Assembly: GCA_948567375.1 (NCBI GenBank)
Contig: OX419759.1
Span: 55,084,593-55,148,592, forward strand
Reading direction: 5' to 3'
Origin: Lunularia cruciata
Taxonomy: Eukaryota; Streptophyta; Marchantiopsida; Lunulariales; Lunulariaceae
DNA: 64,000 bases
The position numbers and the translations under genes are program-made. Shown piece after piece: positions 3,300 to 63,194 of the stretch. The stretch's first letter is position 1, and each line of letters opens with the position of its first letter. The notes beneath the pieces were generated by a model that saw only the letters and a program-made list of their open reading frames with translations, ran no database searches and was not told where the DNA came from.

Positions 3300-4010
3300 T
3301 ACCTTGGTCTGCTAAACACCAAGTCCTCCAGGGTATATAGAGTGACCAAAATACTCAACCTGCTTGTGGAAGAATTTAAACTTCTCAATATGTAATTTGA
3401 GCCCATGAGATCTCAACCTCTCAAACACCTCCAACAAATGTCTCACATGTTCCTCAGAATAGTGCTATAGACCAAAATTTCATCAATATAGCACCAAGAA
3501 AAATTAAATCCTATAAGGATCTTGTCCATGACCCTTTGGAACTCAAAAAGAGCATTTTTTAACCCAAATAGTAAGAACTTCCACTAATATAATTTATACT
3601 TATTGTGAGGATCAATAGCCCAAAATGTTATCTCTGACTTGTCATCCTCCTTGATTGGTAACTAATGATATCCTGCTCAAAGATCCAAAATACTAAATAC
3701 CTTTGCATGCCTAATTGCATCAAAGATCTCTTTTGTTGTAGGCATGTCACACCAATCAGCCCTAGTCTGTTGGTTGATAAGATAGTAATTGCCACACATT
3801 TGCCTATTTGTGTAATTGCTATGCATATTTTTCTTGGTTGGCATCATTAAAGTTGAAGCATACTCTCTATGTGAAATTTCCACAAACTAACTTCAAAAGG
3901 GTCTCGACTTTGGCTCTAAATCAATGCTCTCTCCATGTCATTAAATTTATATGGATGTCAACAAATTGGTATAAAAGTCCAATCTGAATACCATGTCTTT
4001 TTAGAGCACC
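3300..4010 (-). pseudogene. Reverse transcriptase of copy B
   Basis: A minus-strand frame at 3677-3883 gives EISHREYAS, a diverged RMCGDYRPIN block and HAKVFSILDL, collinear with copy A RT. The catalytic motif near 3480 reads YIDE instead of YIDD, so the second catalytic Asp is lost. Frameshifts and stops are also present. Confidence 0.75.
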
Positions 4011-4419
4011 TAAATCCTTCATATCAAAGACAAAACAACTCACGTAGCTCCTCAAGAACCTCCAAACTCTTCATCTTTCTACTCTTGTAAGCTCGGTAAC
4101 TCTTCAAGTATCCTCTATAACTGATGTAGGAGTGGATAACACATTGACTGGCTACTACATCGGGCCCTTGGGAGCAATAATTTCATGCCCCCAACCTCAA
4201 TGTAAAATACTCCCTCTACTCTAGTTACAAGTCCCATATGTCCTCTAGCCTTTACATTCCATCCCAAGCAGACCACTCTCACTAGTAGCTATTGATTTTG
4301 TCCCAATAATACAATGAAACTTAGTCCATCACTCCTAACATGTGCCTAAGTTATCTTGATAGCATAGAGCTCACAAGTGTATGAGTGGTGATGCCTATCA
4401 AGCATATCCTATGTTACTA

Positions 4420-5330
4420 TGCCAAGCCAAGGCTCACAATCCAAGTCAAACGGTTTAGGTTCATAGTTTGACCTAACATCTTGTGCTTGGATGCCTCTAA
4501 CACCAATGTAACAATGGTAATATCGGTACAAAAACCCATTGCTTGCTCCCTCTTATTGGCATTGGGCCCCACCAACTGCTGTGACTTATAAGTCCAAGAC
4601 CTCCGGATCAAAAAGCATGGGAGCCTAGGAAACTCATAAGTGTGAGTAAAGCGGTTGTGAACTATCCAACAAGGACCACCACTACCATAGGTCATCTATC
4701 AGCCATTACCATCTAAGATTGACACCTAACATCCAAAATATGATAAAAAATAAGGTGATGTAGTTGCTGAATCAGATCATAAGCACAATTTAGAACCTCT
4801 TTAGGTAAGAAGTTTGTCTACCAAAGACAAAGAAAATGAGCCCGTGATCCCATTTTGGCTACATATAACAACTAAGATAGGTTCAATCTAAGAATAGACC
4901 TAATGTGTACATCACCACTACTAGTGTATGAGAATTGCACATCAAAGAGACATTCTTTGGAATGTAGGCTAGAGAAATAGATTGGTGAACTTGGGATGTC
5001 GTAATATAAGTAGCATCTCCCAAAATAGACTAGAACAAGGATCTTGTAGACCCCAAACTCAACCACCATGAATATGTCATTATCATGGTCATCTAGAAAT
5101 CACCAAATGAATGGGACCATGTCTCTCCAAATCTTGCACCCTCATCAATAAAATGTGTGTTGGTAGGTCTTTGGGTAACCTTTGACTACTTGTATTAGTA
5201 ATAACTTAGGATACCAATAGGTCATATGATGTAGAGAACTTGCTTGGTAATCTCATCTCTCTCCACATACATGTACCTATGAACCCATATATCTACTTGT
5301 AATACCATAGCTAGTCCAATGCTAATCCCA
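4420..5330 (-). pseudogene. DNMT3-like cytosine methyltransferase of copy B
   Basis: The minus-strand frame at 4417-4695 matches the motif IX/X end of the copy A enzyme (REQAMGF, then HKMLGQTMNLN). The frame at 4872-5069 covers the motif IV-VI region. At the catalytic loop, near 5085, B has stop codons where copy A encodes GWPCQG, so the Pro-Cys nucleophile pair is destroyed. The methyltransferase sits between protease and RT just as in A, which fixes it as an ancestral part of the family. Inactive. Confidence 0.8.
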
Positions 5331-5639
5331 ACAAACAACTCCAATAGACATACTCTCTTTGTTGGATATTACCAAGCAATGAGTGTGGTATCCAAAGATG
5401 ATAAGGTAATAGACTCCAAAAGCTCATCATCACATTGGTATTTTGGTGGTACAAAGGCTCCACTCCAAGCCTACTACACCAATTGATCCACATGTTGTTG
5501 CAATGCCTCCTTAGAACTCCACAATTGAACATGATGGATAGAAAAATCTCACTTGTGCTCCAAATTCAAGTGATCTCCTCTATTATTGGGTTATCCTTTG
5601 CATGGGCATTTTCCTCCAATAAGTCACCAAGCTAAGTAA

Positions 5640-6110
5640 CAAAACCACTTAAAGCTAAAACTAATACCATGGCCCTTGACTATAGTGAGCCAAGATTACC
5701 ACCACTAAAGCATACTAGTAGGAAACATATCCATTCCTCACCTCACTACCAACCTGGCCTATTAGAAGTTGTGTCTTCCCAATAGTCAATGGGATATAAC
5801 TCTACTACTATCACAATGGCTTGAGCTCTCACCACAAAGCTATTAGTTGGATGATTGGGTTGAATTTTGACAATGAGCACCCCACACATGATGTATTGTG
5901 TAGAACCACCCCAAGAGATGTCTACATCTAAAATGGACACCTCTCTAGATCAATCTTCCATAGCTCAACATAAAAAATTATAGCCTTCCTCAATATAAAG
6001 AGTTGCATACCAAAGTCTAATAAGACTCTCTGTAGTGTCAAGACTCTCCTTAAAGGTCCCACCAAATGAAAAATCCCACTCTATTTGTCCAATGGGACAA
6101 CTCCAGATGT
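5640..6110 (-). pseudogene. Protease and protease/methyltransferase junction of copy B
   Basis: The frame at 5746-5940 matches the C-terminal protease region of copy A (GGSTQYI, VRAQAI, IDYWE). At 5661-5690 the minus strand carries the same in-frame TAG followed shortly by an ATGG as at 15207-15221 of copy A. The stop is therefore shared between two copies and is not a private mutation. Confidence 0.65.
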
Positions 6111-6525
6111 GAACCAAGCTCACTCAAAGGCAAGTCTAGTTGGTAACTCCTCCAACCTAGCTGCTATTGCTTGCAATTAACCACTAGTTGTTGAGCAGAT
6201 CCCATGCTCCTCAACTAAGTTAGCTCCACTATCAACCACCTCTTCTTTCGAAGCAAGAACCACATCATCCCTACTCTCACAAAGTATGGTAACCAATTGG
6301 AACAATGGAGTTGGGTAAACTTACAATGTAAAATTATCACTAGTTGAGAACAAAGGGCAACACATAATTAATTGAGCCACCTCCAATGTTTTGCTAAACT
6401 TAATTTGTGGAGTAGTAGATAGTTGATGAACATCTAGTCTATCATGCAATCCATCACCATCTACCATACTTGCACTAGGATGTCTAAGAGCCATGGATGT
6501 CATCTATAGTGCCTTAGAGGGTATG
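6110..6525 (-). pseudogene. gag C-terminal linker of copy B, left half
   Basis: Matches the region of copy A just upstream of the protease (about 14,350-14,750); a frame at 6321-6503 contains a diverged counterpart of AAQLIMRHPLFSASDMFTL. It is cut at 6525 by the insertion of element C and resumes at 35683. Confidence 0.65.
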
Positions 6526-6630
6526 TGTAAAAGACCAAATCCAAGGAGAGAAATAGGAGAATGGAAACTCACATTGGGACACTTGAATGAGAAGAAAACT
6601 CCGAATGCCTAGCATGAGCTTTGGCTTTGG

Positions 6631-6638
6631 TATTTATA
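6631..6638 (-). promoter_or_regulatory. TATA box of the C LTR
   Basis: TATAAATA on the minus strand, about 105 bp before the LTR end in transcription sense. It is conserved in all three C-family LTRs in the window, including 35258-35682 and 62689-63177. Confidence 0.65.
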
Positions 6639-6654
6639 GGTAGCATACAAGGTC

Positions 6655-6870
6655 CTTGAGAAGCTTCTCAAGAAGCTTCCTCAAGCCGCTTTCTTAGAGT
6701 GCAAGGCAAGTTAACTAGGAAGCTTCTAAAGAAGCTTTTTTCTAGAAGCCGTCTACTTGGCATGCAAGCTAAGCTACTTAGAAGCTTCTAGAAGCTTCCT
6801 TCTAGAAGCTAATTACTTGAGGTGCAAGCTAAGCTAACTAGGAAGCTTCCCAAGAAGCTTCCTAGATACT
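6655..6870 (-). promoter_or_regulatory. Heat-shock-element-like array in the C LTR
   Basis: Immediately upstream (in sense) of the TATA box lies a dense run of alternating GAA/TTC pentamers. The best is GAAGCTTCTAGAAGCTTC at 6781-6798, which fits four alternating units of the nGAAnnTTCn heat-shock-factor consensus. Others are TTCTAGAA and GAAGCTTC. The same array, with more substitutions, is present in the other two C-family LTRs. A heat- or stress-responsive role is inference; direct binding is untested. Confidence 0.5.
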
Positions 6871-6952
6871 TCCGGAATATTCAAGGCTAATTTGTCTTAT
6901 ATGGTACTTTGTAAGCCCGACTAACTTTGTCGCTAAACTCCATATTGTTACA

Positions 6953-6966
6953 TATTCCCCGGCCGC
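6953..6966 (-). other. Polypurine tract of element C
   Basis: The minus strand reads GGCCGGGGAATA directly next to the LTR, the expected place for the plus-strand primer. The same position in element E reads AATGGGGGAATA. Confidence 0.6.
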
Positions 6967-6997
6967 TAGTTGATGACGTCTTCGTTGCCAATGAAGC

Positions 6998-7162
6998 TTC
7001 AAATTCCTGGATGGCCGTCTGTGCATTCTGGAGGTGAGAAAGAGGTTCCCAGGTGGCATCATGAAGGGGATACCCTTTCCAAAGGACCTTGTACTCCATA
7101 TGTTGGTGACGGCCTTGTTGAATATGGCAACGCGCAAGGATACAATCAACTTCGTACTCCTC
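6998..7162 (-). pseudogene. Chromodomain at the C terminus of element C integrase
   Basis: The minus-strand frame reads EEYEVDCILA, then EYKVLWKGYP, then ATWEPLSHL, the chromodomain signature with its conserved aromatic residues and the WEP turn. In chromoviruses this domain follows integrase and steers integration to marked chromatin. It places C among chromodomain Ty3/gypsy elements. Local frame is intact here but the polyprotein upstream is broken. Confidence 0.88.
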
Positions 7163-8512
7163 ATGATCATTGATAGGGACAGGAAGAGGAGGAGGTTGGA
7201 CTCGAGAGGAAAAGGAAAAGGGGTTAGGAGCAAAAGGGTTTCAACTTGGAAACATGAAAGACAAGATGGATACGCATGTGACAAGGCAAGGCAAGTCAAG
7301 AAGCAACAAGAGAGACAATCTGGGTGATATCAAAGGGTCCTATCCAATTAGGGGCAAGTTTAAAAACTTGGGTATCAAGTGGGAGAGAGAGGTTATTGGA
7401 TGATAGCATGACTTTATCACCGACTTCAAAGGTGAGATCATGACGATGGTGGTCCGCATATTGTTTTTGGCGATTCTAAGCAACAAGGAGGTGAGACTTG
7501 GCTTGTTGGAGAGATTGGGATATAGTGGTCAAGAATGTGGAAGTATGAGGAACTTGAGATGGAGGAGGAGCAAGAAGAGAATCTGGAACAAGAAGAGAAT
7601 CTGGAACAAGCAGATCTTGGAAAAATTGAGAAAGGAAGGAGAGAATCCGGTGCTTGCATGTTTAGAATTGTTGTAGGCAAATTTTGCAGTGGCAAGACAT
7701 TCATCCCAATTGGATTGGTGGACATTGACAAAGGCACACAACATATCTTCCAATGTACGATTTGCACGTTCAATTTGTCCATCATTTTGAGGATGATAGG
7801 CCGTGGATAAAGCAAGCTTGGTGCCGAGTATTTGAAAGAATGGTTGCCAAAACTTCTCTGTAAATTGAGGATCACGGTCAGAGATGAGTATGCATGGCAT
7901 CCCATGATGCTTGAAGACATTGTCAAAGTAGATTTGTGCTAAGGTTAGAGCATCCACAATATCACAAGTTGGTGCCAAGTGGATTTGCTTACTAAGCTTA
8001 TCCACAAACACCACGATGGCGGTGTGTCCTTGTTTTGTCTTTACCAAGGATGTGATAAGATCCAAGCTCACATGCTCCCAATGAGCTGATGGAACGGCGA
8101 GCGGTTGAAGGAGTCGACTCAACTTTTGGTTGCTAGCCTTCTTATGTTGGCAGCTCTCACACAATCAAACAAATTCTTGAACATCTTGTGTCATGTTGGG
8201 CCACCACCATTGACGTTGGAGGGTATCCAAGGTCTTGTCCATACCCATGTGACCAGCGATGGGTAAATCATGGTCTTCTTGAAGGCACACAAGTTGAAGA
8301 TCACCTTTGGCTGGAACATAGATCCGGTCCGCATGGAATAGAAGACTTTTCTTGAAGGAGAAGGTGTTGTACTCCTTGTCACATGTTGTTAGATGACCAT
8401 GTACCATTTGGAAGAAGGGATCTTGTTGTAGAGCTAACCTTAAATTGTTATGGATCTTGGGATCAGTTGACACCGTCGTAATTGCTACCACAATGAGAGG
8501 AAGAGACTTCAA
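7163..8512 (-). pseudogene. Integrase of element C
   Basis: The zinc-binding region lies at 8165-8330 (HMGMDKTLDTLQRQWWWPNM, then CESCQHKK across a stop). The catalytic core at 7529-8164 shows SLDLITSL (first Asp), ISDRDPQF (second Asp) and GQIERANRTLEDML (Glu). One stop separates the zinc region from the core. C-terminal to the core an 18-bp tandem duplication at 7571-7606 and a frameshift disturb the frame. Inactive as it stands, since gag is also split. Confidence 0.85.
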
Positions 8513-10849: not shown

Positions 10850-11291
10850 TGTCACACCATTTGTAGTTCCGCATCTAGTTGCTCAGACACTGGAGTTCCA
10901 GTGATAGTAGTTAGAGTTATTTCAGTAGTATCTCAAAGACTACTTTCTGACGGTCAGATTTGGTGTTCGGGGTACTGACTTCACGGTGGGGCCCACCGTC
11001 ACTTTGCACCGTCGAGTGTGCCATCAGCGGGACCGTTAGGGTTTCAGGGTTAGCTCAAGTCCAAGGGTATAGTTTCAAAGGTGAGCTCCAGAGAGCTCAC
11101 TTCTCTGATGTTGAGCCTTCGAGTTCCTGGCTATGGTGGACAGAGGCCGGCGAGCGTCACCTGGATTCTCTATGCTTGAGTGGGTGTGGCTTGACTGTAA
11201 TCAGTGCCCAGTTGTTGGCAATTTATAGAGTGACAGATCAAGTACTGATCTGAGTTGAGTTGAGTTGAGAATGTTAAGCAATCTGATTACA
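10850..11291 (+). repeat. 5' LTR core of copy A
   Basis: Starts TGTCACAC and ends at or near GATTACA; collinear with 20067-20515. A TATA-like TTTATAGAG lies at 11222-11230, followed by a GAGTT repeat (TGAGTTGAGTTGAGTTGAGA). It lacks the 105-bp segment that brackets the 3' copy on both sides. Confidence 0.75.
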
Positions 11292-12551
11292 TCAGAGAAG
11301 TGAAGTCAAGGGGAAATCGGGTGCAGGAACGTTGAGTGTTGGTGGTATCTCCAAGCTCGGTGGATCGTGGTAGCTCGATTCAGGTTCTGTGTTTCCCTAG
11401 TGTGCAGAAGCTCCTGTAGTTGATGCAAATTTGGCAGTTAGGTGGACGATGTGCGGAAGCGCTGGCCAAATTTCGAGCAAAGAAGGAGCAATTTTCGAGT
11501 AGTATTGTGATTTTGAGCTCAGGAGGTGAAGGCATGACCAATTTGCTGCAAGTTGGGCTCAAAAAGTGAAATTGAAGGTGGAGTTGGAAAGCTCTTCTCA
11601 TGAAATTGTGATTTGGAAAAACCCGTTTTGTCAATTTGGCTCGAGTGGAAAGTTAGCGGGGGATTTGGCAGACATCCATCTTTAGGGTTTACGTCAGATT
11701 TTATGTCAGATTTATGTCAGATTTTGGGCCAGAATTGGAGGAGTTTTGCTATTTGGCCAGATTTGGAGAAGTTTCGGTAGTTTGGAAGAGTTTTGCAGAT
11801 TTGGAGAAGTTTCGCCAATTTTGGAGGAGGTTCGAAGTGGCAACAAGAAAGGCCTTATTTGGGCGTTTCGAGGCTTCGAGGCATAGGGCTGTGGGCTATG
11901 AGAGGCTACGAAGGCCTAGAAGGGCCAGAAGGGCCAGCAAGCCAGCTTGCTGGCGTGAGGCTAGCTAGTTTAGTGTAGATCTTGGTCATTGGTTGGCAAA
12001 ATCTGCCTTTCTTGCTAGATTGTGCACAACAGGGTTTGACCCCTAGATCTCTTGTTCCTAGACTGGTGCCCTAGCCAACTGGTCCACCCTCACTTGTTGT
12101 CATAGTGATTGTGCCACTGTTATCTATACACATGTAGCTTTGGCTAGGAGAGGCAATTTGATCCCATTCTTGGTGATCTTGGTAGCTTAGGACTTAGATA
12201 CGAACTACTCTTATGTCAAATGCCAAATGGTGGCAGAGTCAGTACCGTGTTGTGTTATGAGATGGAGGGTTTTCGTTTAGATTTCTTGTGATTAGATCCC
12301 CTCCATTCTCTGCTTCCTATTTGTGCACCATGTTTGTGTGAGGTGCCTTGACTTTTGAGCGTTGGTGCTCTGGTGTGCTCTCGGTGGTGAGGCTGGAGTG
12401 ATGACCAGTCAGACTACCTTTGTTTCTCTCCGGTGAGGCAGGAAGTGATGACTTGCAGACCGTGAGAGTGCGTGTTATGATGGCAGGTTACAGGTTGCCC
12501 TTCCCCTAGTGTAGTTATCTCGGTAGAGTTACATTAGTGGGTGGTGTTTAG
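11292..12551 (+). other. 5' leader of copy A
   Basis: A long untranslated leader between LTR and gag. It contains a run of ATGTCAGATTT repeats near 11,690-11,725, several short glycine/arginine-rich frames with no recognisable product, and an antisense tRNA-like stretch near 12,021-12,087. No standard initiator-tRNA primer site is obvious next to the LTR. Confidence 0.5.
12021..12087 (-). other. tRNA-like sequence, antisense in the copy A leader
   Basis: On the minus strand TGGACCAGTTGGCTAGGGC resembles an A box and D arm, and GGGTCAAACCC about 35 bases later resembles a B box and T arm. The anticodon stem is poor and the acceptor stem unclear. It could be a degenerate tRNA pseudogene, a tRNA-derived SINE scrap, or chance. 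Confidence 0.3.
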
Positions 12552-13751
12552 TTGGTGTTGGCACGTGATGGTGTTGGCACTTGGTGGGGTACTTGCGGTT
12601 GCGACTTGCAGTTGCAGTTGGTGGTTCGGGTTTGTTGTTGCAGTTACGTGGTCACGACGGAGTTCTTTGGAGATTCCAGAGGAGTTAGCCCTGCAATACG
12701 CAGTGGGTTTACTCGGAGTGGTGCTCGGTATCAACCTGTATCTCAGGTCCCAGTGAGGGAGGAGATTGACTCTGAGTTGGAGTTCGACACAAGAGCTGAT
12801 TCAGTTGAGAGTGCACTTGGTGTGCCCGCACCATTGTTGTGGGACATGGATGAGATTTATGGGGCCTCCAAAGGCCCTAGGCGTTTCTCTGGTACAGTGG
12901 GTACCATTGAGTTGGATGACTTCATCCAGGAGTTTGATAGTTGGTGTGATCTGCAGCAGATGCGGAACCCGACTTTGTTCACACCCTTCATGGCATGGAA
13001 GGGGTTGTTTCAGCACTTGGAGGGTCCGCCAATGGATGACTACCATGAGTTCAGGAGAGCTCATTTGGAGGAGATTGAGTTATGGAGATAGTATTGGTCT
13101 CCACACTATGTCTCCATCACTTTAGGCTCAGTGGCCAGGAGTAGATCGGCTGTACCTACGAGTTCTAGCTCGAGTAGTGTGGGTGGAGCTAGTGGAGGTG
13201 CACTAGTTGGAGATAGTGCTACTACGAGTGGAGGTACCGCTGCAGGAGGTGGTGTGGTACCGGGGTTTAACCCCATGGTGGAGTTCTTCCTGTGTTTGAG
13301 GCAGAACTACCAGGGAGTGCGGACTGACAAGCTGAGGAGCTTGCAGGAGTTCCAGCGGAAGGCTGGAGAGAGCCTACGCAAGGCATACACCCGCATGAGG
13401 CGGCTGATCAGTTTCACTCAGGGAGTTACTAAGGCCCAGGCAGTCCAGTTTTGGTATGGGATATTGGACAGGGAGTTGCAACGTAGAGTTCGTGATGCTA
13501 CGTTGTTGCAGGCTACTTCGCCCACTTTGGCAGTAGTCTTCGGTTTGGCTGAGCGTATTGAGCTCAACATGGTGGAGGAGAGAGTGGTGACATCTGGATT
13601 TGGTAGAGAGACCTCATCCACGGTTGTGACTTCTTCTAGAGTGCTGCAAAGTGCACCACGCCCAGTTGGTTTTCAAGGACAGGGTGGACAGCCCAGATCC
13701 TATGGAGCGAGTGTAGTTAGACCCTTACCCTCATTTTCGGGTCAGCAGTAG
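12552..13751 (+). pseudogene. gag of copy A
   Basis: One frame interrupted by TAG at 13089. It contains WDMDEIYGASKGPRRFSG, WCDLQQMRN and FMAWKGLFQHLEGP early, and a helical capsid-like block with LQEFQRKAGESLRKAYTRM and VQFWYGILDRELQRRVRDA, as in Ty3/gypsy gag. Serine/glycine-rich spacers separate the blocks. It ends at a TAG at 13749, after which the zinc knuckles follow in the same frame. The start is uncertain because no clear start context stands out upstream of 12552. Gag would form the particle that packages the RNA. Confidence 0.75.
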
Positions 13752-13950
13752 CCAGTGAGTGGTGGTGTTGCTTGTTGGACTTGTGGTGGACCTCACCATA
13801 GGAGAGAGTGTACTCAGGGCAGCGGACCTGATACCTCTGGTGCATCATAGCCAGCACAGAGGCAGTGTGAGCATTGCCACAGATTTGGTCACACTAGTGA
13901 CCGGTGTTTTGACCTACACCCGGAGTTACGGAGTGGTAGGGCTGCTATGG
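13752..13950 (+). pseudogene. Two gag zinc knuckles of copy A
   Basis: In the gag frame, CWTCGGPHHRREC (a CX2CX3HX4C variant) is followed after a TAG at 13848 by CEHCHRFGHTSDRC (canonical CX2CX4HX4C) and FDLHPELR. These bind the element RNA. The second knuckle with its HPE tail recalls Ty1/copia gag more than typical Ty3/gypsy gag. Confidence 0.8.
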
Positions 13951-14749
13951 CAGATAGTAGAGGAGCTCCAGTTCATGGAGGACGAGGTGGTAGAGGTGGT
14001 AGTAGAGGATCTACACTTAGTAGGGGTGTGGTACCTGCCCTTACTTCTAACATAGCTATGGCTACTCGGATTGAGCAGTTGGAGCAGAGATTGGCTAGTA
14101 TGGCTATTGCTCAGAGGAGATCAGATTTGGGTGCTGAGGCTTCCACCTCATATGTTGGTGATAGAGATGCTTTGGACTTCATGTGCGGAGCAGCACAGGT
14201 AGATGCATCTGCAGCAGTGACTAGGAGTGCAGTACGTGCTCCAGAGCCTAGAGGAGCATCAGTGGAGTTGGACCCACAGAGAGGAGAGGTTGGGAGACAG
14301 GTCAGACTTCCCCAATCTTTCACGCTTTCTGAGGCATTACAGACGACATCCATGGTTCCTAGACGTCCCAGTGCAGGTGTGGTAGGTGGTGATGGAGTAC
14401 CTGATGGAGTACCTGCTAGTCAGCCACTTGCTACTACACAGACTGAGTCTAGCATGATGTTGGGGGCGGCTCAGCTGATTATGCGGCATCCTTTGTTTTC
14501 AGCCAGTGACATGTTTACATTGGGAGTTGACCCAGCCCTAGTGTTCCGGTTGGCTGCCACGTTGTGTGAGAGTAGGGATGGTGCAGTTCCTACTACTAGA
14601 GCAGAGGTGGTTGGTAGTGGAGCTAACTTGGTTGAGGAGCATGGGATCCGTTCAGCGACCAGTGGTTTATGGCAGGCAACAGCGGCTAGACTGGAGGAGT
14701 TGCTAGCTAGACCGGCCTTTGAGAGAGCGCGGTTTACACCTGGTGTTGT
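13951..14749 (+). pseudogene. Gag-protease linker of copy A
   Basis: Open throughout. A Gly/Arg-rich stretch (GGRGGRGGSRG) is followed by a short predicted helix (IEQLEQRLASMAIAQRR) and a variable region with AQLIMRHPLFSASDMFTLG, which is conserved in copy B. No known domain recognised. Confidence 0.6.
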
Positions 14750-15209
14750 CCTATTGGATAACCAGAGGGGGATTTTTCGTTTGGTGGGACCTTCAGGGAA
14801 GGTCTATACACCACAGAGAGTCTTGTTAGACTCTGGTGCGCAGCCCCTTATGTTGGGGAAGGCTGCAGTTGTTGGTCTGGAGTTACGGAAGACCGATGTG
14901 GAGAGGTGTCCATTTCAGATCCAGACATCTCTTGGTGGTGGTTTGACACAGTACATCACACGTGGAGAGCTTGTTGTCCAGGTTCAGCCTGGTCATCCGA
15001 CTGATAGCTCGGTGGTGAGAGCTCAAGCTATTGCGACGATAGCTGAGTCATATGATGTGCTAGTTGGGGGAGCAGTGTTATACCCTATGGGTTTCAGCAT
15101 TGACTATTGGGAGGAGACAGACTCTTATAGACCTGGTTGGCAGTCTGGTGAGGGACAGGTATGTCGTCTACCAGTACGCTTCAGTAGTGGCAGTCTTGGC
15201 TCACTATAG
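14750..15209 (+). pseudogene. Aspartic protease of copy A
   Basis: RVLLDSGAQPLMLGK is the retropepsin active site (D-S-G). The C-terminal half contains VVQVQPGHPTDS, VVRAQAIATI, DVLVGGAVLYPMG and IDYWEE, replacing the usual ILG-type block. It shares one open frame with the gag linker from 13947. The frame ends at TAG 15207-15209, a stop also present in copy B. Confidence 0.8.
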
Positions 15210-15221
15210 TCCGGGACCATG
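15207..15221 (+). promoter_or_regulatory. Conserved TAG followed by Kozak-like ATG, in frame
   Basis: TAG at 15207 and ACCATGG at 15216-15222 are in the same frame as both protease and methyltransferase. The equivalent TAG and ATGG occur in copy B near 5661-5690. Either readthrough of a UAG or a second start would give a separate DNMT-pol product. It is also possible that a common ancestor already carried a null mutation. Confidence 0.4.
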
Positions 15222-16476
15222 GCAGCATCAGTTTTAGCTTTTAGCGGTGCAGTTACTTGGCCTGGTGACTTGTTGGAGGGGAACGCCCATGCAGAGGATA
15301 CTCCAGTACCAGAGGAGATCACTCGGCTATGGAGTACAAGTGGGATTGTTCCATCCACCTTGGATGTTCCATTGTGGATTTCAGAGGAGGCATTGTAGCA
15401 GCATGCAGATCAGTTGGTGCAGCAGGCTTGGAGTGGAGCCTTCGTACCATCAGGGGATGAGTGTGAGGATGAACCTCCAGAGGTGATTGCTTTGACACCT
15501 CTGGATACCACACTCATTGCTTGGCAGTATCCAGTAGAGGGGATATGTCTATTGGAGTTGTTTGGTGGGATCAGCACCGGACTAGCTACGGTGTTACAGG
15601 CGGGTATCTGAGTACAAAGGTACTTGTATGTAGAGAGAGATGAGACTGCTAGGCGAGTCTCTCTACATCATGTGGCACACTTGGCCTATCGGTATCCGGA
15701 GTTATTACCGATGTCAACAGTTAGAGGTTACCAGAAGGCCTTACCAGGAGACATTTCCTTACTGGGGGCGCATGACCTAGAGAGACATGGGCATGTTCAC
15801 TTGGTGATTTCTGGATGGCCATGTCAGGGACATACATGTGCGGGCCGCGGTTTGGGTCTTCAGGATCCTCGTTTTGGTGTGTTTTGGGAGATGTTACGGA
15901 TATTATGACATCTCCAGGTTCATCAGTCTGTTTCTCCAGCTTATCTTGGAGAACATTCCATTGATGGGTGATTCTCGCACAAGAGTGGTGGTGAGTACAC
16001 ATCAGGTCCATTCATGGATGGGACCTGCTGTATTGTTAGATGCAGCCAGAGTGGGATCACGGGCTCATCATCTTCGCCTTTGGTGGACAAACCTTTTATC
16101 CAGAGAGGTTCTACAGCGTAGTTATGATGGGATTCACCGACTAGACCACATTCTTGTTGATGATATCTTGGATGTTGGATGTCAGTCTCAGACAGTGGTA
16201 GTGGCTGATAGGTCACCTATGGTAATGGTGAACCTAGTTGGACAGCCTAGAGCTGCATTTCCCACACTCATGAGTTTCCCAGGCTCTCATGCTTTTCGAG
16301 AGGGAGGACCTGGACTTGTTTGGGACTCACAGTTACAGCAGTTGGTGGAGCCCAATGCTGATGAGAGAGAGCGGGCGATGGGTTTTCGCACCGGTATTAC
16401 CGCTGTTCCAGCAGTGTCAGAGGCATCCAGGCATCAGGTGTTAGGTCAGGCGATGGACCTGAACTGTTTGACCTAG
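15219..16476 (+). pseudogene. DNMT3-like C5 cytosine methyltransferase inside copy A
   Basis: Motif I is LLELFGGISTGL (15549), followed by YLYVERDETARR; motif IV is LVISGWPCQG with the catalytic Cys (15819); motif VI is LENIPLMG (15949); motif VIII is DAARVGSRAHHLRLWWTNL (from 16039); motifs IX/X are ERERAMGF and RHQVLGQAMDLN (to 16476). The order is not permuted, so it is not DRM-like, and the short target-recognition region and the LFxGIxTG form of motif I resemble DNMT3. It would add methyl groups to cytosine C5. Broken by stops at 15396, 15609 and 15906 and a frameshift near 15945, but every catalytic motif is still legible. It lies between protease and RT, an abnormal place for a host-type enzyme. 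Confidence 0.88.
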
Positions 16477-17017
16477 ATTGTGAGCCTTGGTTTGGCAGAG
16501 CAGCATAGGATGCGCTTGATAGGCATCACCACTCGGACACTTGTGAGCCCTGTGCCTATCAAGACAATTCAGGCACATGCTGGGGGCGATGGACCGAGTG
16601 GACATGGTATTCTTGGGACACATCCAGTAGCTACTAGGGAGAGTGGTCTACTTGGAGTCCATCCAGGTGAGCGTGGGCTACTTGGATTACACCCTTGGTC
16701 CACATGGGATGCAGCCAGAGGATGTGTGGAGCTTGCAGCCATAGTGGAGGGAGTTTTTCGCACAGAGGTTGGGACCTCTAGTGGTCGGGAGCATGACACT
16801 ATTGCTCCCAAGGGCCCAGTATAGCAGCCTGTCAGTACGTCTTCCACTCCTACTACAGTTACAGAGGATACTTGGGAGCCAGATCTTGGACCCAAGCTTA
16901 CTGGAGAGGAAAGACGGAGGGTTTGGAGGTTCTTGAGGAGTCACACGAGTTTTTTTGCCTTCAGTATGAAGGATTTGGGTGCTCTGAAGGGACCTGGTAT
17001 ACGGATTGAGCTGACTA
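16477..17017 (+). pseudogene. Methyltransferase-RT linker of copy A
   Basis: The frame continues past TAG 16474 as a Gly/His-rich linker with repeated LLGVHPGERGLLGLHP units (16,640-16,700), then after TAG 16822 a segment with GEERRRVWRFLRSH and the approach to RT. No separate domain recognised. A one-base frameshift lies near 17,025. Confidence 0.6.
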
Positions 17018-17686
17018 GTGACACCAGTTTTCCGACGTCCTTATCGATATAGTGAGATGGAGAGGACATTGATTCAGAGCCGGAGTATTGACCTTTTTGA
17101 GGCTGGTTTGGTGGAGATTTCACATGGAGAGTATGCATCAGCGACAGTGATGCCAGCCAAGAAGGATATGCATGGCAACTATACAGATAGGCGGATGTGT
17201 GGAGATTACCGTCCTATCAACCGACAGACCAGGGCTGATCGGTATACCATGCCTACACCGGAGGAGATTTTTTATGCAATTGGGCATGCAAAGGTCTTCA
17301 GTACTTTGGATCTTCAAGCAGGATATCATCAGTTGCGGATCAGGGAGGAAGATAAGTCCAAGACAACATTTTGGGCTATTGATCCTCACGGCAAGGATGT
17401 GTTATATCAGTGGAGGTTCTTACCATTTGGGTTGAAGAACGCTCGTGCTGAGTTCCAAAGGGTCATGGATAGGATCCTAGCTGGACTGGATTTTTCTCGG
17501 TGCTATATTGATGACATTTTGGTGTATAGCACTATTGTGGAAGAGCATGAGCGACAGTTGTTGGAGGTGTTTGAGAGGTTGAGATCTCATGGACTCAAAC
17601 TACATCCTGGGAAGTGTAGGTTCTTCCACAAGCAGGTTGAGTATTTGGGTCACACTATCTACCCCGGAGGACTTGGTGTTCAGTAG
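17018..17686 (+). pseudogene. Reverse transcriptase of copy A
   Basis: A 222-codon open frame with RRPYRYSEMER, MPAKKDMHGNY, RMCGDYRPIN, FSTLDLQAGYHQLRI, FLPFGLKNARAEFQ (Arg where Pro is usual) and catalytic YIDDILVYS, then KLHPGKCRFF and VEYLGHTI. This is the full Ty3/gypsy fingers-palm-thumb order with all catalytic Asp residues present. A TAG at 17684 separates it from the next segment in the same frame. Confidence 0.92.
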
Positions 17687-18170
17687 ACCAAGGTGGAGGC
17701 TATTGCACGTATTCCTCGGCCTATGGATGTGAGCAGAGTGCGAGCATTCCTTGGGTTGGCAAACTTCTATCGCCGCTATGTTAGAGGATTTAGTGCCATT
17801 GCCAAGGCCTTGACAAAGCTGACCAAGCTTACACAGGAGTGGTGTTGGGGAGATGAGCAGGAGAGAGCTTTTGTAGAGCTCAAGGAGAGGTTGACATCTG
17901 CTCCTATTTTGAGGAGACTGATCACGGGATGACCATTTCAGGTTCATACTAATTGGAGTATGTTGGGGCTTGGAGCGGTGCTCACCCAGCATGATGATGA
18001 GGAGAAGGAGTTTGTGGTGGCCTATGCTAGTCGCTCCAACAATTCAGCGGAGGCGAAGTATAGTTCATATGAGGGAGAGTGCTTGGCATGATTTCACGGT
18101 TGTTCACAGACCTGGAGTGGTGAACCGTGATGCAGATGGGTTGAGTAGAAACCCATGTCCCAGCCAGCAG
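17687..18170 (+). pseudogene. RNase H of copy A, internally deleted
   Basis: After the connection (RAFLGLANFYRRYVRGF, DEQERAFVELK) and a TGA at 17930, the domain begins [16 protein letters not shown] and reaches SSYEGECLA near 18,090. It then jumps to [18 protein letters not shown] in another frame. Copy B has about 145 additional bases at this point, including the DHQPLKWL motif. The loss removes the C-terminal half of the catalytic domain and shifts the frame. Confidence 0.8.
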
Positions 18171-19640
18171 GATCAGACCGGAGCACGTTGGCATGGTGAG
18201 ACAGATGAGGAGATGGTGCCAAGTTGGCATGCATTGGCCTTTTTGTGTATATTTGCAGAGGCTTTGGTGGTATCTCTCTCAGTGCATACAGGAGGAGTTA
18301 TTGAGGTCACAGATCTAGAGAGTGAAGATATTGGTACGGTTCAGCGAGACATTCACAATGATGTCTTAGTGATGGACTATCTTCGGACTAGTGTTGTGGG
18401 TGGCACAGTTGGGGCCAAGGAGAGAGACTATTTTCTTCAGCGAGCCAGACGGTTTAGATTGGAGGGTAGACACCTTTTGCGTGTATGGGACGATGGTAGA
18501 GTGCGAGTAGTACCACTTCCATCACAGAGACCACAGTTGGTCCGTCATGCTCATGAGGAGCTAGGACATTTTGGAGTAAAGCGTACGTATAGCTTACTTC
18601 AGAGTCATTATTGGTGGCGTGGTATGTAGACCGAGGTACAGCAGTTTGTTGCCAGATGTGTGGTTTGTGATCGAGTTAGAGCATCATTCAATGCTCCTAC
18701 GCCACAGTTACACCCATTACCTATCATGGGATTGGGTTACCATTGGAGTTTGGACTTCGCCGGACCTTTACCGCTGACTGTGAGACATCATCGGTATGTT
18801 TTGGTGATGGTGGAGCACTTCTCCAAGTGGATTGAGTTGGTGGCACTTCCTGACAAGTCTAGTGAAGGGACGGCTTACTCATTCCGGGATCGAGTTCTTA
18901 GTCATTTTGGTGCACCAGCTAAGGTTTTGACTGATCAGGGTACAAAGTTCTTGGGGGAGTTTCAGGTCTTGTGTGACAAGGCTTTGATTGATCATCGTAC
19001 TACATCCCGAGATCACCCTGAGGCAGATGGCTTAGCAAAGAGAGTGGTTCAGACGGTGAAGAGAGGATTGCGAAAGTATGGTTTGCAGAGAGGCCACTTG
19101 GGAGATTGGGATCTTCAGTTACCTTGGTTGGCCATGGGCTATCGGTTCAGCCGGCAAGCCTCCCTAGTATCCTTCTTTCCATACTTTCTACTCTATGGAC
19201 GAGATCCAGATTTACCTGCATCCATTCGTCGAGATGCTACTATAGTTTTGGACTTGGATGACCCCGATGTATGGATGAGCGCATGTTCTCAGCGGATAGA
19301 GATCTTTTGGAGAGTGATGCCGATGGCCTTTGAGAACTTGGTGATTGCTCAGCATAGAGATACTTTACGCTATGCTACCATTCGAGGAGGAGGTTATAGA
19401 CCCTCGATCCGTCGATTTCATCCAGGCGACTATGTATATCTACAGCAGACAGCACCGACGACACTTGATATTTCTACAGGCCGCACTATCTTAAGAGTGC
19501 GCGAGGTTTTGCCATCTGGAGTCCTTGTGTTAGAAGGACGTGATGGTGTTGTTTGGAAGGATCATGTGCGCAATTGTGCGCCATGCCACCTTCCAAACAT
19601 TGATGGTACTATGGACCCAAGCTTGGCACTTGTACGTGTA
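18171..19640 (+). pseudogene. Integrase of copy A
   Basis: Zinc region: HAHEELGHFGVKRTYSLL, then WWRG, TAG 18627, and CVVCDR. Core: SLDFAGPLPL (first Asp), VLTDQGTKF (second Asp), then GLAKRVVQTVK, where the expected catalytic Glu is Lys (AAG at 19038-19040), a single G to A change from GAG. The C-terminal part has FHPGDYVYLQQ, the usual SH3-like fold start. The frame 18660-19790 is open and runs into the PHD finger. Confidence 0.85.
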
Positions 19641-19646
19641 GGCTTG

Positions 19647-19790
19647 AGGTGTATGTTATGTGGCTCTTTTGGTGGAGCTGCTACTATGTTAGTGTGTGAT
19701 AGCTGTTCGAGAGGATGGCATATGGCATGTATGACTCCTCCCCTCACGGTGGTTCCTCGGGGACAATGGTTATGTCCTAGATGTACTTGA
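19647..19790 (+). pseudogene. PHD finger at the C terminus of copy A
   Basis: A complete C4HC3 zinc ligand set: CMLC, then VCDSC, then GWHMAC, then WLCPRC, with the conserved Trp two residues before the last Cys pair. It is fused in frame to integrase and ends at the natural stop 19788-19790. PHD fingers typically bind histone H3 tails, reading lysine 4 state. In this position, where chromoviruses have a chromodomain, a role in choosing the integration site is a reasonable inference. Confidence 0.88.
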
Positions 19791-19948
19791 CCTATAGCTA
19801 GTTCATTCTTTATATGGTATAGATTGCAGACAGGCGACTAACGATGGGGCTCCATAGCACCCGGCCTCATGATCTTTGCTCATTAAAGGGTATACCATAT
19901 ACTTAGAGTAGATGGCTATCTGGAGTTAGAGGGACCTAACCGCCAACT
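19791..19948 (+). other. Copy A 3' untranslated stretch
   Basis: A short noncoding stretch between the PHD stop and the polypurine tract. No features seen. Confidence 0.5.
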
Positions 19949-19959
19949 AGGGGGGCGAT
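19949..19959 (+). other. Polypurine tract of copy A
   Basis: AGGGGGGCGA directly before TGTGGCAC; the expected plus-strand primer at the 3' LTR. Confidence 0.65.
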
Positions 19960-20621
19960 TGTGGCACTTTAGAGTCTATGTATGACTTATGTGTGAGTTG
20001 TGCTTCTATAGTGTATGATGTTGACAGCGATGTATGTTGTGTAGCGATGTGTATACGCACGACAGCTGTCACACTATTTGTAGTTCCGCATCTAGTTGCT
20101 CGGACACTGCAGTTCCAGTGATGGTAGTTAGAGTTATTTCAGTAGTATCTCAAAGACTACTTTCGAACGGTCAGATTTGGTGTTTGGGGTACTGACTTCA
20201 CGGTGGGGCCCACCGTCACTTTGCACCATTTGCACCGTCGAGTGTGCCATCAGTGGGACCGTTAGGGTTTCAGGGCTAGCTCGAGTCCAGGGGTATAGTT
20301 TTGAAGGTGAGCTCCAGAGAGCTCACTTCTCTAATGTTGAGCCTTCGAGTTCCTGGCTATGGTGGACAGAGGCCGGCGAGCGTCACCTGGATTCTCTATG
20401 CTTGAGTGGGTGTGGCTTGACTGTAATCAGTGCCCAGTTGTTGGCAATTTATAGAGTGACAGATCAAGTACTGATCTGAGTTGAGTTGAGTTGAGAATGT
20501 TAAGCAATCTGATTATTGTAGCACTTTAGAGTCTATGTATGACTTATGTGTGAGTTGTGCTTCTATAGTGTATGATGTTGACAGTGATGTATGTTGTGTA
20601 GCGATGTATATACGCACGACA
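19960..20621 (+). repeat. 3' LTR region of copy A with a duplicated 105-bp end segment
   Basis: Three parts: a 105-bp segment (19960-20064, TGTGGCAC to CGACA), the LTR core (20067-20515) matching 10850-11289, and a second copy of the 105-bp segment (20517-20621, TGTAGCAC to CGACA). The polypurine tract says the LTR starts at 19960; the shared outer end with copy B says it ends at 20621; the 5' LTR has the core only. These three facts do not fit one simple LTR. Confidence 0.7.
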
Positions 20622-20758: not shown

Positions 20759-20945
20759 GGTGGTGCCCACATTTTTTGTTTTTTTCCAAAATAAAGGAGA
20801 AGAAGTGTATAGAGAAGTCAGAATGCGCCTGTATGGCCGAAGAAGGCGAAGAAAAGAGTCTTCGGGATGAAACCCGAGGTAAAGTGACTTTGGGTCATAA
20901 GACAAAGTACTCGAAAATGCCTTGTCAGCATACAACCCAAAGTAA

Positions 20946-20989
20946 ATTGTCTTCGTATCGGGGGGAGCTCAACCCGATGCGAAGACAAT
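20946..20989 (+). other. Hairpin in U3 of D 5' LTR
   Basis: ATTGTCTTCGTATCGGG pairs with CCCGATGCGAAGACAAT across a short loop with one mismatch. The 3' LTR copy is less perfect. Possibly a regulatory protein site or part of the repeated CTTCGGG motif family in this U3. Confidence 0.5.
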
Positions 20990-21144
20990 CTAATAACCTT
21001 TCGTTGGGGCGAGAAATTCAAGAAGGGACCGTTCAAAAACCGGTGGCCCATACATGCAAAGGTTGATTGACAGTGACAGGTGCATGCAGGAGGTGTGATT
21101 TCTCGGTAGAAACTCAAAGTGACAAAAGACGAAGAAGCGCAACT

Positions 21145-21151
21145 CTATAAA
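21145..21151 (+). promoter_or_regulatory. TATA box of D 5' LTR
   Basis: CTATAAAA-type box, conserved at about 31,072 in the 3' LTR. It would place the transcript start about 270 bp before the LTR ORF. Confidence 0.6.
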
Positions 21152-21454
21152 ACTTGAACTTGCAACAACAAAATGTCGAGTAATTTTCCTTCGCCGTAGA
21201 GAAGTTGTCTTGTAGGTGATCGTGGGAAGGGAAATAGAGTTGGAATCGTGTTAGTGCGCAAGGGAGAAGTCGTGAGAGTAAAATTGAGAGAGAGTGAGAA
21301 GGTAGAAGAGATGGGAGGAGGAAAGAAGAACTCCAAATTCGCAGTGAGAAATCATGCAATTTAGAGGTTGGATGTAGTTGCAAGGATCAAAGTCTTGAGC
21401 TGACTTTGGATCACGTTTCTGGCATGGAATTGGAATGTAAGCTTTCCAGGTTTC

Positions 21455-23748
21455 ATGACCGAAATCATCGAGAGCAAGTGTCTTGATGGACCCGAGGAAG
21501 AAGGGAAGAGAGGAAATCCGGCTCGCTGGACAGAGTCAGATTGGAGACTTGTACTCGGGAAGGAAGCAGGCTCAGAGCAGGGAGCCATGTTCTTGGGGAA
21601 GGGAGAGATAGCTCAAGAGACACAGGAGGTGAGAGATGCCTTCTCGTCAAAGAGGACGAAGAACGGGTATAAGGTTGAGAGCTACAAAGACCCTATGAAG
21701 AGAGGGATCGTGAGTGCACTAATGGCTATCCTGAAGCCGGAGCGAACCACTTATGTGATGAAACACCAAGCGGTGTTCTTCCACAAGCTTTTCGCAGGAG
21801 AACCAATCAATTAGGCGCGCTGTTTTCACGGGAGACAAGGCAAATGGTGTGGAATTTGCGGGATATGTCGCCTCCACACTACATCATGCCATTTGCAGCA
21901 CACTTCTACCTTGGGCTCAACTTGCTGAACTCGGCGGAGCGGACTTGGATGGTGTCGCACTTCCATCCTGATGTGCGAGAGGAAGTCGACGTCGAGGAGC
22001 AGCAATACATCCTACAGATCAGGAGCACTGATGACTACTATGCAAAGATGGAGAAGAACATGGAGGTCGTAGTGAGTACCCCAACTACAAAGAAGAGGGG
22101 TCGGCAAGGTGACGCCGAGGACATAAAGAAACCTCGGAAGACGCGGAGAGGCAACCCGAGTTGAGGTATGGTGGTAATTGAGTCGGAGGACAAAGACTCA
22201 GAAGGAGATGCCGAGCTCAAAACTGAAGACTCGGAACACGAGGAGGAGCCTGAGCTAACGCTGCAGAGTGGAGATACGAGTAGCGATAGTGATGAAGGTG
22301 GAGAAATGACATCGGCGCCAGTGGCTGAAGAATACAAAGAAGAAGTGCGAGCCCATATGGAAGCCGAAGACAACACACAGTTGGAAGACGAAGTAACTGT
22401 GCCCAAAGAGAAGAAGATCGCAGTACAACAAGGAGTTTGCTCGAGACATAAGGCAAAGTGTGAAGCGGGGCCAAGTAAGGCCAAAGAAGAGGTAAGTGAA
22501 AGCTCGAGAAGTGAGGCGTCGATTCCGATACAAAGACTATAGAGAAGAAGGCGAGTATCGGATGAACAAGAAGTACAAAGAGAAGTGGCTACACAAGAAG
22601 AAGTAACCCCGAGCAATGGAATGGAGTACCTGCGGGATGTGGTATGTCCTCTACTGATACATATGGAGCACAAGAAGAAGGAAATGCAGTCAACATGTCC
22701 GGAGGTAAAGACTGTATTGCAGGTGTTGGTGAGATTAGAAGAAGAAAACTCGGAGTTGAAGAAGAGTATAACCCGAGGTGAGGAGGAAAGGGAATTGCTG
22801 CGAGCGGAGGCAGTGGTGAGAAGTCAGGTAATTGAAGACCTCAAGAGGGAAGTAAGTTATCGAGAGGATCTTGTGAAGAAGAGTGACATAGCAAGGGAGA
22901 GACAAGTAGCGGAGTATGAAATCTTGAAGTAGCAGTTTGTTGATTCAAGAATAGAAGTAATCCATGCTATGGCAAGAGTAGCAGCGAAGGATCAAGAGCT
23001 CGATAGGGTGATGGAGAGTGTCGAGAAGAAGAAGCAAATCTGGCAATGAGAGTTGGCGGCATGATACTGAGAAGAAGACCGATTATGAGAGTTACTTCGT
23101 AATCAGGAGGAGAAGGTTGTACAGAAGGAGAAAGAGAAGGAGACGGTGAAAGCCGAGTTTGAGGCGGAGTTTTTGATGTACAAGGAGGACTGGGTTGCAG
23201 ATCAAGAGCAAGAGAGGAAGATGAGATTGGAGCCATTGAAGGAGATTGTCCTCAGGATGAACGCAATGTTGAGTACAGAGGCCGGTATTTGGATTGAGGA
23301 AACGAGGTTGCACGAGTTGAAATTGTTGGTGCAGGAGACGATGCGAAGACAGGCAAAAGATACAGATTTGAACGTGTTGTTGATAAGTCTCCGGACTCGT
23401 ATAGATAGGAAGATCCTAGAAGTAGAAGACAATATTGCAATTAGATTAGACTTAGTGAAAATATAGATAGAAAAGCTTTGGAAGCATGTTAGAGCAAAAC
23501 CCGAAGTAGATAACATAGGAGTACAAATGTCTTTGGAGTTACCATTGGAGACATTAGAGAAGAGTGGGTCAAGAGATGATGAGTTAGATAGATTACCCAC
23601 TAGTGGAATTTCAGATCAGGAAAGAGAATTGTTGGAATTAGTAGAAGAAGAAGAAAATATAAAACCCGGGGACAGAGTAGTTGGAAGTAAAGTTACTACG
23701 GGTTTGGGTTTGAAAGCCAAGGACAAAGTAGACATTGGATCGGAGTAG
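21455..23748 (+). pseudogene. Coiled-coil ORF inside D 5' LTR
   Basis: A homologue of 31379-33673, about 765 codons with a frameshift between 21,800 and 21,844 and several stops. The N-terminal 150 residues contain ILKPERTTYVMKHQAVFFHKL and NLLNSAERTWMVSHFHPDV. A Ser/Glu/Asp-rich acidic region with a basic KKRGRQ patch follows. The last 350 residues are Glu/Lys-rich with strong heptad character (EENSELKKSITRGEEER). No known enzyme. Position in the transcribed part of the LTR makes it the first ORF of the element RNA. Confidence 0.65.
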
Positions 23749-24529
23749 TAACAGTTTTGAGATATGAAGAGGTGCATTGTCATTTTGGATCTATAGGTTA
23801 GAAAAGTTATTGTAGAACGGTATAGTTGTTAGAATTGTTGATTGATTCACTACTTAAGAGTGGCATTCACAGTCAGCTATTGTTCAGTGCTCATTATTTC
23901 TGAGATTAGATAAAGCAAAGTGTTGTGAAGCAGTGCTCGTCGCTTGAGCTTGATTCCGAGTATCAACTTCGTGTCTATGTTTGTGAGTGTTTGGAGAAAT
24001 TTGAAGTGCAAGTTAGTGTGCTTGTTGGATGTTGGATTCTACAACCGTGATCTTCATTCTGTGTGTTTGATCCTAAGTGAAGTGCAATCAAAGCAATGCC
24101 TTGACAGATCTGAGAGGAGTTGTAGTGTTGGTAGTATTCTGCATTTGTGAGTGCAGTGCGAGGTTGATGTGAAGCAATTTCAATTGAGGAAGTTGTGCCT
24201 TCAGTGGACGGGTGGAACACAATTCTGAGGCAAAGTCATTTTGCAGTGAAGTGCCATTTTCGGGAGAGCCTAAATCATCACAATCAAGATTGTTTGGAAA
24301 GATTTGATGGAGTTGTGATTATGGAGTGTTAATTTGTGACAAGATTGTGAGTCAATGCTTGTTACTCTCTTCTGGGTGCGGTTTCTACCTAAGAGACTAA
24401 AGAAGAACTCAAGAAGAACTACATTGTTACTGTTTGACTTTGTATTTGACCAATTCTGACTTGTATCTCTGCGGGAACAAACTTTACTTACCCGATTACC
24501 GCAAAAGTGATATTTGCCGGGTTGTCACA
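23749..24529 (+). other. LTR region after the D LTR ORF
   Basis: About 780 bp of noncoding LTR (U5 side), repeated at 33674-34468. No convincing frame. Confidence 0.6.
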
Positions 24530-63177: not shown

Positions 63178-63194
63178 TATTCCCCCATTGCTAG

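Follow-up and report, generated by a model that had tools for sequence, protein, structure and literature searches.

We detected a cytosine methyltransferase (DNMT) domain of the DNMT3 type within a nearly full-length Ty3/gypsy element (copy 1) on the plus strand of the window, i.e., the whole 64,000-nucleotide stretch of Lunularia cruciata DNA that was analyzed, at positions 10850-20621. Copy 1 is almost certainly a dead copy of an element of the kind published as KnitGypsy-Dnmt3. Profile, fold, and architecture agree in supporting an unpermuted DNMT3-type domain inside a Ty3/gypsy element, as the initial annotation of this DNA had proposed. Taken as a whole, the data are best explained by an element of this kind that would prime its own reverse transcription, make its DNMT at the level of Gag, pass through a circle, and methylate its own cDNA, a reading to which we assign a probability of about 0.6. 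The Pfam models RVT_1, H2C2, and rve were all matched in copy 1, and likewise in its relatives, which identifies a Ty3/gypsy element with a DDE integrase. Its parts follow in the order A1, gag, protease, DNMT, reverse transcriptase (RT), RNase H, integrase, PHD finger, polypurine tract, B1, A2, and B2, with the following positions in the window:

10850-11289, plus strand: A1, left terminal repeat, starting with TGTC and 95% identical to A2
11068-11072, plus strand: putative TATA-like box read from the letters, 29 nt before the fold-back arm
11097-11111, plus strand: 5' arm of a perfect 15-nt fold-back, by complementarity the likely RNA 5' end and self-primer
11289-11303, plus strand: 3' arm of the fold-back, the likely primer-binding site (complementarity; other copies)
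12552-15209, plus strand: gag (CCHC knuckle; Retrotrans_gag, E 0.053) and aspartic protease (DSG at about 14830), broken by stops
15540-16476, plus strand: DNMT3-type cytosine methyltransferase domain with stops and a frame change (motifs I, IV, VI, VIII, and X; profile; relatives)
16822-16824, plus strand: conserved UAG closing the gag-protease-DNMT frame, here TAG CAG CCT
17015-17686, plus strand: reverse transcriptase frame (RVT_1, 3e-29)
17687-18080, plus strand: RNase H region, assigned by position and relatives
18519-19019, plus strand: integrase, with H2C2 zinc-binding domain and rve core (Pfam)
19650-19784, plus strand: C-terminal PHD finger (PF00628, 3e-10), also in relatives
19945-19957, plus strand: polypurine-rich tract directly 5' of B1 (sequence; same layout in the distant relative L001)
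19958-20064, plus strand: B1, internal copy of the right repeat, followed by GC and then A2 (repeat comparison)
20067-20515, plus strand: A2, internal copy of the left repeat (repeat comparison)
20515-20621, plus strand: B2, right terminal repeat, ending with GACA, where inter-copy similarity ends in most copies
175-6518, minus strand: copy 2, a decayed, 5'-truncated relative with the DNMT region and a B-A-B end, sitting inside the DNMT of a third copy
1-173, minus strand: DNMT fragment of the third copy, interrupted by copy 2 (repeat comparison)

The protease of copy 1, for which no Pfam match was obtained, was identified by its DSG motif and by relatives, two of which are matched by Asp_protease_2 (P0025 and, below the cut-off, P0002). 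In the RNase H region, copy 1 is missing about 146 bp that copy 2 has. The start of A1 was seen against other flanks in four of six small stretches from other copies, and the other two have no A start. In copy 2, the B1 unit together with the polypurine tract is tandemly doubled (window 710-941, minus strand).

The DNMT domain shows motifs I (LLELFGGISTGL), IV (GWPCQG), VI (LENIP), VIII (AHHLRLWWTNL), and X (GQAMDLN) in unpermuted order. The initial annotation had placed it at 15219-16476, in frame between the protease and the RT. The domain is indeed present there, but the catalytic part begins only at about 15540, the preceding 15219-15540 being a linker. Its position between the protease and the RT also stands, but the reading frame is not continuous, with internal stops at 15396, 15609, and 15906, a frame change at about 15945-15950, a second frame ending at the stop at 16474, and the UAG at 16822-16824. 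Given this conserved stop, the DNMT is in frame with the RT by readthrough only. The Pfam DNA_methylase model scored 20.6 and 21.3 bits on the copy 1 stretch, just below the cut-off of 22; membership of this family was thus reached through the relatives, which make the assignment certain where the Pfam match alone would not. The read-through DNMT piece matched 134 proteins at E<=1e-3, with the best at 3e-173 and 65% identity, and DNMT3A in PDB at 2e-7. The C5-methyltransferase match is therefore significant and cannot be put down to chance.

Profile and fold comparison both place the domain in the DNMT3 class. A profile built from an alignment of 16 relatives, searched against PDB up to E 1 (57 sequences), gave 74-80 bits for DNMT3A, 77 for DNMT3C, and 66-75 for DNMT3B. 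It gave 35 bits for Arabidopsis-type DRM2 and 38-43 for 4onj/4onq, presumably tobacco DRM, where part of the domain was covered, 25-34 for HaeIII and HhaI, and 16-22 for DNMT2 and tRNA(C38) enzymes; no chain named DNMT1 or CMT was among these 57 sequences. The motif order I-IV-VI-VIII-X, with DRM chains matching part of the profile, rules out a permutation of the DRM type. An AlphaFold2 model of the relative P0004 (368 aa, 30 alignment rows) had a mean pLDDT of 88, and the best 50 of the 226 matches in a fold search with it (E<=0.001) were all DNMT3 entries. Motif IV reads PCQ in the window element versus PCN in DNMT3A, and the PWWP and ADD domains found in front of animal DNMT3 gave no Pfam match in the copy 1 pieces or in the relatives scanned. 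A text search had pointed to Closterium DNMTs without the catalytic motif, an idea that was dropped after the profile alignment placed a Cys there.

Two protein searches detected 134 and 148 relatives, and among the matches listed (the best 120 of each) were Calypogeia fissa, Marchantia polymorpha, Riccia sorocarpa, four Sphagnum species, and many metagenomes. A quick DNMT tree, limited to the 70 of 102 rows that reach 330 aa, joins the window element to 22 rows including Calypogeia, Marchantia, and Sphagnum (SH-aLRT 100). A quick RT tree with 101 rows puts it in a group with Marchantia, Calypogeia, and P0194 (SH-aLRT 98); both supports are SH-aLRT values without bootstrap, from trees with long-branch warnings. 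A search with ORF2 also found Closterium elements with a DNMT and the Klebsormidium nitens protein P0228 (DNMT, RT, and rve), which is 47% identical over 88% to ORF2 of L001 and which we infer to be the published KnitGypsy-Dnmt3 element. Among 299 proteins, 118 bear an RT; 32 of these have a DNMT match within that same protein (some of them weak), 63 a PHD finger, and 16 both. In four metagenomic Ty3 proteins (P0232, weakly matched, P0243, P0247, and P0271) the DNMT lies between the RT and the integrase, a second position that points to a separate capture or a domain shuffle. Besides, the PHD finger precedes the integrase core in P0285, P0287, P0288, P0294, and P0295, rather than standing at the end. 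A search of genome contigs gave five loci, namely L001 and four in Streptomyces (31-35% identity). Viral contigs gave no match to P0001, and 54 weak loci (24-48% identity) when searched with the 16-relative profile. L001 is a contig in a cyanobacterial-labelled bin from an uncultured sample, 46% identical, which we take for a stray eukaryotic contig.

The family is abundant in the Lunularia genome, with at least hundreds of copies, some of them with long open frames. The 565.8-Mb assembly (74 contigs) was searched with P0004, and 111 of 13363 candidates were scored, these being the best by protein score, all at 72-74% identity. The matched DNMT stretch is free of stops in 66 of the 111, eight of which have an open frame of exactly 1428 codons; the segment is thus not confined to a single locus, and less damaged copies exist. 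The top DNA_methylase match of the genome (80 bits, G000:C7:31989837-31990154) lies outside the listed element copies and may be a host enzyme. One to five in-frame stops in the DNMT and its tail were found in 12 of 15 copies selected by 3' end, and none in the other three, indicating that most copies picked regardless of protein are dead. A 26-mer spanning the B1-A2 junction occurs exactly 483 times (reversed control, 0) and a 19-mer from the start of A 2045 times, both counts being lower bounds for the family. With more than two A starts per exact junction, decayed junctions and partial copies must be common. Within the first 100 A starts listed, 26 same-strand neighbours are 8.8-9.7 kb apart, and for 13 of the 22 junctions in that set an exact A start lies 8.8-9.8 kb upstream.

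Purifying selection on the DNMT is supported by the differences between copies. Twenty stretches were chosen by their 3' ends, and the 18 with DNMT sequence (L128 and L143 were dropped) were compared with one real copy as the reference. Differences shared by at least two copies were 48 nonsynonymous and 43 synonymous, versus 98 and 34 for private ones (Fisher p 0.001). When these counts are set against the opportunities (2990 and 1045), the ratio is about 0.39 for shared and 1.0 for private differences, suggesting that the DNMT was constrained during multiplication and decayed freely afterwards, with the caveat that recurrent C-to-T changes may make private differences look shared and that 6 of the 19 stop changes are shared too. 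Pairwise pN/pS, whose values are not independent, was 0.47 in 15 of 20 copies picked by 3' ends (0.37 with transversions only). In copies picked by protein similarity, pN/pS was 0.36 for the DNMT (21 of 29) and 0.80 for ORF2, frame-broken copies included. Both estimates point the same way as the shared-versus-private test, the first being cruder and the second coming from a biased sample to which we give no weight. An estimate of selection from copy 1 versus copy 2 was dropped, as both are decayed and there was no codon-position bias. Relative to copy 1, copy 2 shows C to T at 60% of CG, 43% of CHG, and 16% of CHH sites, and G to A at 42, 40, and 16%, respectively. A silenced plant copy methylated at CG and CHG is expected to decay in this way; host methylation can explain the C-to-T excess, and the element's own enzyme is not needed for it.

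Downstream of the DNMT, the context UAG CAR YYA is present in 28 of 29 genome copies picked by protein similarity (30 loci, with L088 left out for its length), and the remaining copy has CAGCCT after the stop. The UAG occupies the same codon in 28 of the 29 and lies one codon earlier in one; these copies are close by descent and do not count as 28 independent cases, the sole distant DNA being L001. In the window, the bases after the stop are CAGCCT in copy 1 and TAGCCA in copy 2. The site was covered in two of the 20 stretches picked by 3' ends, both of which fit the motif. L001 reads TAG CAA TCA, its gag-protease-DNMT frame ending there and RT, RNase H, integrase, and PHD finger continuing in the same frame. 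Among 60 proteins with motif X, five relatives, including those of Calypogeia and Sphagnum jensenii, end exactly 93 residues past this motif; the remaining ones have different ends, which in some may reflect a contig edge. According to the accessible text of PMC2754532, UAG CAR YYA is the readthrough context of tobacco mosaic virus, tested in plants, and readthrough candidates are also cited there for rice gypsy elements. As the conserved, leaky-type UAG places the DNMT on the Gag side, we infer that the DNMT would be made at the level of Gag. A stop between DNMT and RT is not universal, since in 28 of the 32 proteins with both, including P0228 of K. nitens, the DNMT stands ahead of the RT in one predicted protein, some of these being weak matches or maybe spliced gene models.

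At the left end of the element, 15 nt of A1 can pair without a mismatch with the site immediately 3' of A1, the longest complement in 2000 shuffles averaging 6.3 nt with a maximum of 11. Two other copies have the identical 15 letters at the site after A1, and a third differs at one of them. The layout recurs in L001 with a different sequence, its 19-nt arms being 89% complementary and separated by 157 nt (177 in the window), and a TATA-like box precedes the arm by about 30 nt in both the window copy and L001. A tRNA primer was considered, but the site only partly resembles what we take to be the initiator-Met primer-site motif and lacks its expected start, and the 15-nt fold-back fits better. 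Self-priming is known for Tf1/Sushi and Tcn1 elements, as described in the accessible part of PMC6317226.

In its inserted form, copy 1 reads A-coding-B-A-B, and ordinary LTRs at both ends were rejected because A1 stands without B. Split direct repeats of this form characterize DIRS/PAT-type elements. With the polypurine tract adjoining B1 and the fold-back site adjoining A1, the usual rules would give a cDNA of the form B-A-coding-B-A. Of 8011 candidate 3' ends, 40 were scored, among them that of the window element; every one of the 40 has the B-A-B arrangement, which in one case is split into two pieces. In all 30 loci compared (window included), two bases join B1 to A2, GC in 29 of them, and the junction is exactly GACA-GC-TGTC within the palindrome GACAGCTGTC in 26. 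At the outer 3' end, 27 of the 30 have GACA and three AACA, followed by differing flanks. Six of these flanks start with GC (L099, L100, L109, L110, L112, and L120) where about two are expected, more than a clean cut would give, which disfavours such a cut; that of L099 begins GCTGTC, like the inner junction, which a clean cut does not explain. The junction palindrome is also present in L001, together with a B-GC-A junction, although A-B-A-B cannot be shown in an assembled contig. Five elements could be read at both ends and are flanked by 4-bp target duplications, three of them perfect (AACC, AGAA, and ATAT) and two with one transition each (TCTA/TCTG and, for the window element, CGAG/CAAG). 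The simplest reading of these ends would be a circle cut at the palindrome.

We propose the following life cycle. Starting in A1, the RNA would fold back and serve as its own primer for reverse transcription beside A1, in the manner of Tf1. Ribosomes would mostly halt at the UAG, yielding DNMT at the level of Gag and packed in excess, and a minority would read through to give RT, integrase, and PHD finger; we consider self-priming and readthrough together probable. Reverse transcription between the primer site and the polypurine tract would give B-A-coding-B-A and then a two-repeat circle, which the integrase would cut at GACA-GC-TGTC inside one repeat to insert A-coding-B-A-B with a 4-bp duplication, a step that we put forward tentatively, at slightly under even odds. 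While still in the particle, or right after nuclear entry, the cDNA or circle would be methylated by the DNMT, so that the new copy would arrive marked like resident DNA, and the PHD finger would steer insertion by a histone mark; our confidence in this step likewise stops a little short of an even chance. Judging from sequence, the element's own cDNA is the most likely target of the DNMT. That every part holds at once, with a Gag-level DNMT3, a self-primed and methylated cDNA circle, and a PHD-guided DDE integrase that cuts the palindromic junction inside the repeat and not the ends of reverse transcription in a copy-out, paste-in cycle, seems doubtful; if it does, the methylase would be part of a stealth entry kit. 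We know of no description of integration by cutting inside a repeat for retroelements with a DDE integrase.

Parts of this cycle can be read differently. The UAG might be the plain end of ORF1, with the RT made through splicing, re-initiation, or a second RNA, and the Marchantia models P0126 and P0142, which have DNMT and RT in one protein with less intervening sequence than in L001, as a predicted intron would give, would fit this; however, in L001 the stop is followed directly and in frame by ORF2, and UAG CAR YYA is kept both in L001 and in the window's family, and we regard such a plain end as improbable. A linear route with an unusual strand transfer, or an old tandem duplication, could account for the split repeats with no circle cut at the palindrome. 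The B-GC-A junction of L001, an assembled contig in which A-B-A-B cannot be shown, and the GC at six of the 30 outer flanks would suit such a route. On the other hand, A1 lacks B and has the primer site immediately 3' of it, A2-B2 joins the two expected ends of reverse transcription, and GC is found inside the junction and is absent outside in 24 of the 30 loci, as a cut circle predicts, making the linear route rather unlikely.

As for its function, the DNMT might travel with the PHD-bearing integrase and act at the insertion site or on other copies, where it would silence or protect the locus and so damp the element's own spread. The PHD finger after the integrase would suit this, and both effects are offered as possibilities in the accessible text of PMC5890265, but the UAG on the 3' side of the DNMT puts it on the Gag side, away from integrase and PHD finger, so that the bulk of the DNMT would be separate from the integrase, and the many copies do not suggest strong damping; we give this reading little credence. 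Even less probable, in our view, is that the DNMT fold has been kept for binding, folding, or circularising nucleic acid, catalysis being secondary. The domain does ride with Gag, where handling of nucleic acid is needed, and the nearest DNMT tested showed no activity (PMC5890265, accessible part). Against this, the profile alignment places the catalytic Cys of motif IV in 88 of 102 DNMT stretches, with a gap in 12 and another residue in 2 (i.e., in 2 of the 90 spanning stretches), and this Cys and the Glu and Asn of motif VI are invariant in the 16-sequence alignment. The initial annotation had suggested that the element could methylate its own cDNA or its insertion site, hiding new copies or damping competitors; such roles are among those already proposed in print.

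The initial annotation had named precedents from dinoflagellates and a charophyte alga, and both are confirmed by the accessible part of PMC5890265 (de Mendoza et al. 2018), which describes Gypsy elements of K. nitens that carry Dnmt3 and have DIRS-like repeats (KnitGypsy-Dnmt3). A 2025 paper (PMC12344493), in the part accessible, cites this work yet names LTR Copia for the streptophyte element, where the 2018 paper has Gypsy. According to the accessible sections of PMC5890265, KnitGypsy-Dnmt3 shares with the window element the Ty3/gypsy domains, an unpermuted Dnmt3-type domain, A-coding-B-A-B repeats, and purifying selection on the DNMT. It differs in that its DNMT lies in the Pol ORF with the RT, whereas here a conserved UAG separates the two, and in that the window's family has at least hundreds of copies, in a host that the DNMT tree places within or close to the bryophytes; K. 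nitens is described as having fewer DNMT-bearing copies than Symbiodinium. Its DNMT gave no methylation in yeast, a result its authors deemed inconclusive, and cDNA methylation is offered there as a possible role alongside insertion-site effects and damping. The PHD finger, fold-back primer, and 4-bp duplications are features of the window element that were not met in that description, as far as it is accessible. SymbioDIRS-Dnmt3 of Symbiodinium is likewise described there as carrying Dnmt3 in a retroelement with split repeats, and its DNMTs methylated CG in yeast, but with its tyrosine recombinase, versus the DDE integrase here, it belongs to another element class. DIRS/PAT elements share the split direct repeats (PMC5890265, same sections), whereas the window element has an rve (DDE) integrase and 4-bp duplications at its ends; no tyrosine recombinase was among the Pfam matches of the copy 1 pieces. 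Tf1/Sushi and Tcn1 share self-priming (PMC6317226, accessible part), which is predicted here from the fold-back, and differ in that the DNMT, split repeats, and PHD finger belong to the window element.

The KnitGypsy-Dnmt3 kind itself is thus already published. What is new is its abundance in this genome, its kin in liverworts and Sphagnum, and the constraint on shared relative to private inter-copy differences. Read from the letters of the element, the new features would also include a DNMT that a conserved stop of the leaky type leaves on the side of Gag, putative fold-back self-priming sites, a predicted PHD finger after the integrase, and 4-bp duplications at split-repeat ends with an inner palindromic junction, which suggests a circular intermediate. 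In the literature searched, mostly outside subscription journals, no report was found of DNMT-bearing cases in bryophytes, nor of a PHD finger or split repeats with an integrase, and the accessible part of PMC6338049 makes no mention of PHD. The kin in Marchantia and Sphagnum occur where genetics and methylomes are feasible, and copies with unbroken frames in the same genome allow one to ask why a jumping gene carries a silencing enzyme. The conserved UAG predicts a Gag-level DNMT and the end structure predicts circles, both directly testable. With at least hundreds of copies, some of them with open frames, kin in tractable hosts, and testable predictions, the reason for which a parasite carries its host's silencing enzyme becomes accessible to experiment.

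Elsewhere in the window, a 3.8-kb direct duplication, 93% identical, was observed at 20760-24529 and 30689-34468, with no Pfam match in the single reading frame scanned (31739-32587). Another repeat, at 6526-7801, 35258-35682, and 62687-63998, adjoins the element at one gag position (about 14327), and this gag junction was found both in copy 2 and in a gag fragment at 35682-36484. The same repeat overlaps the chromodomain end of another Ty3 element (6887-7240).
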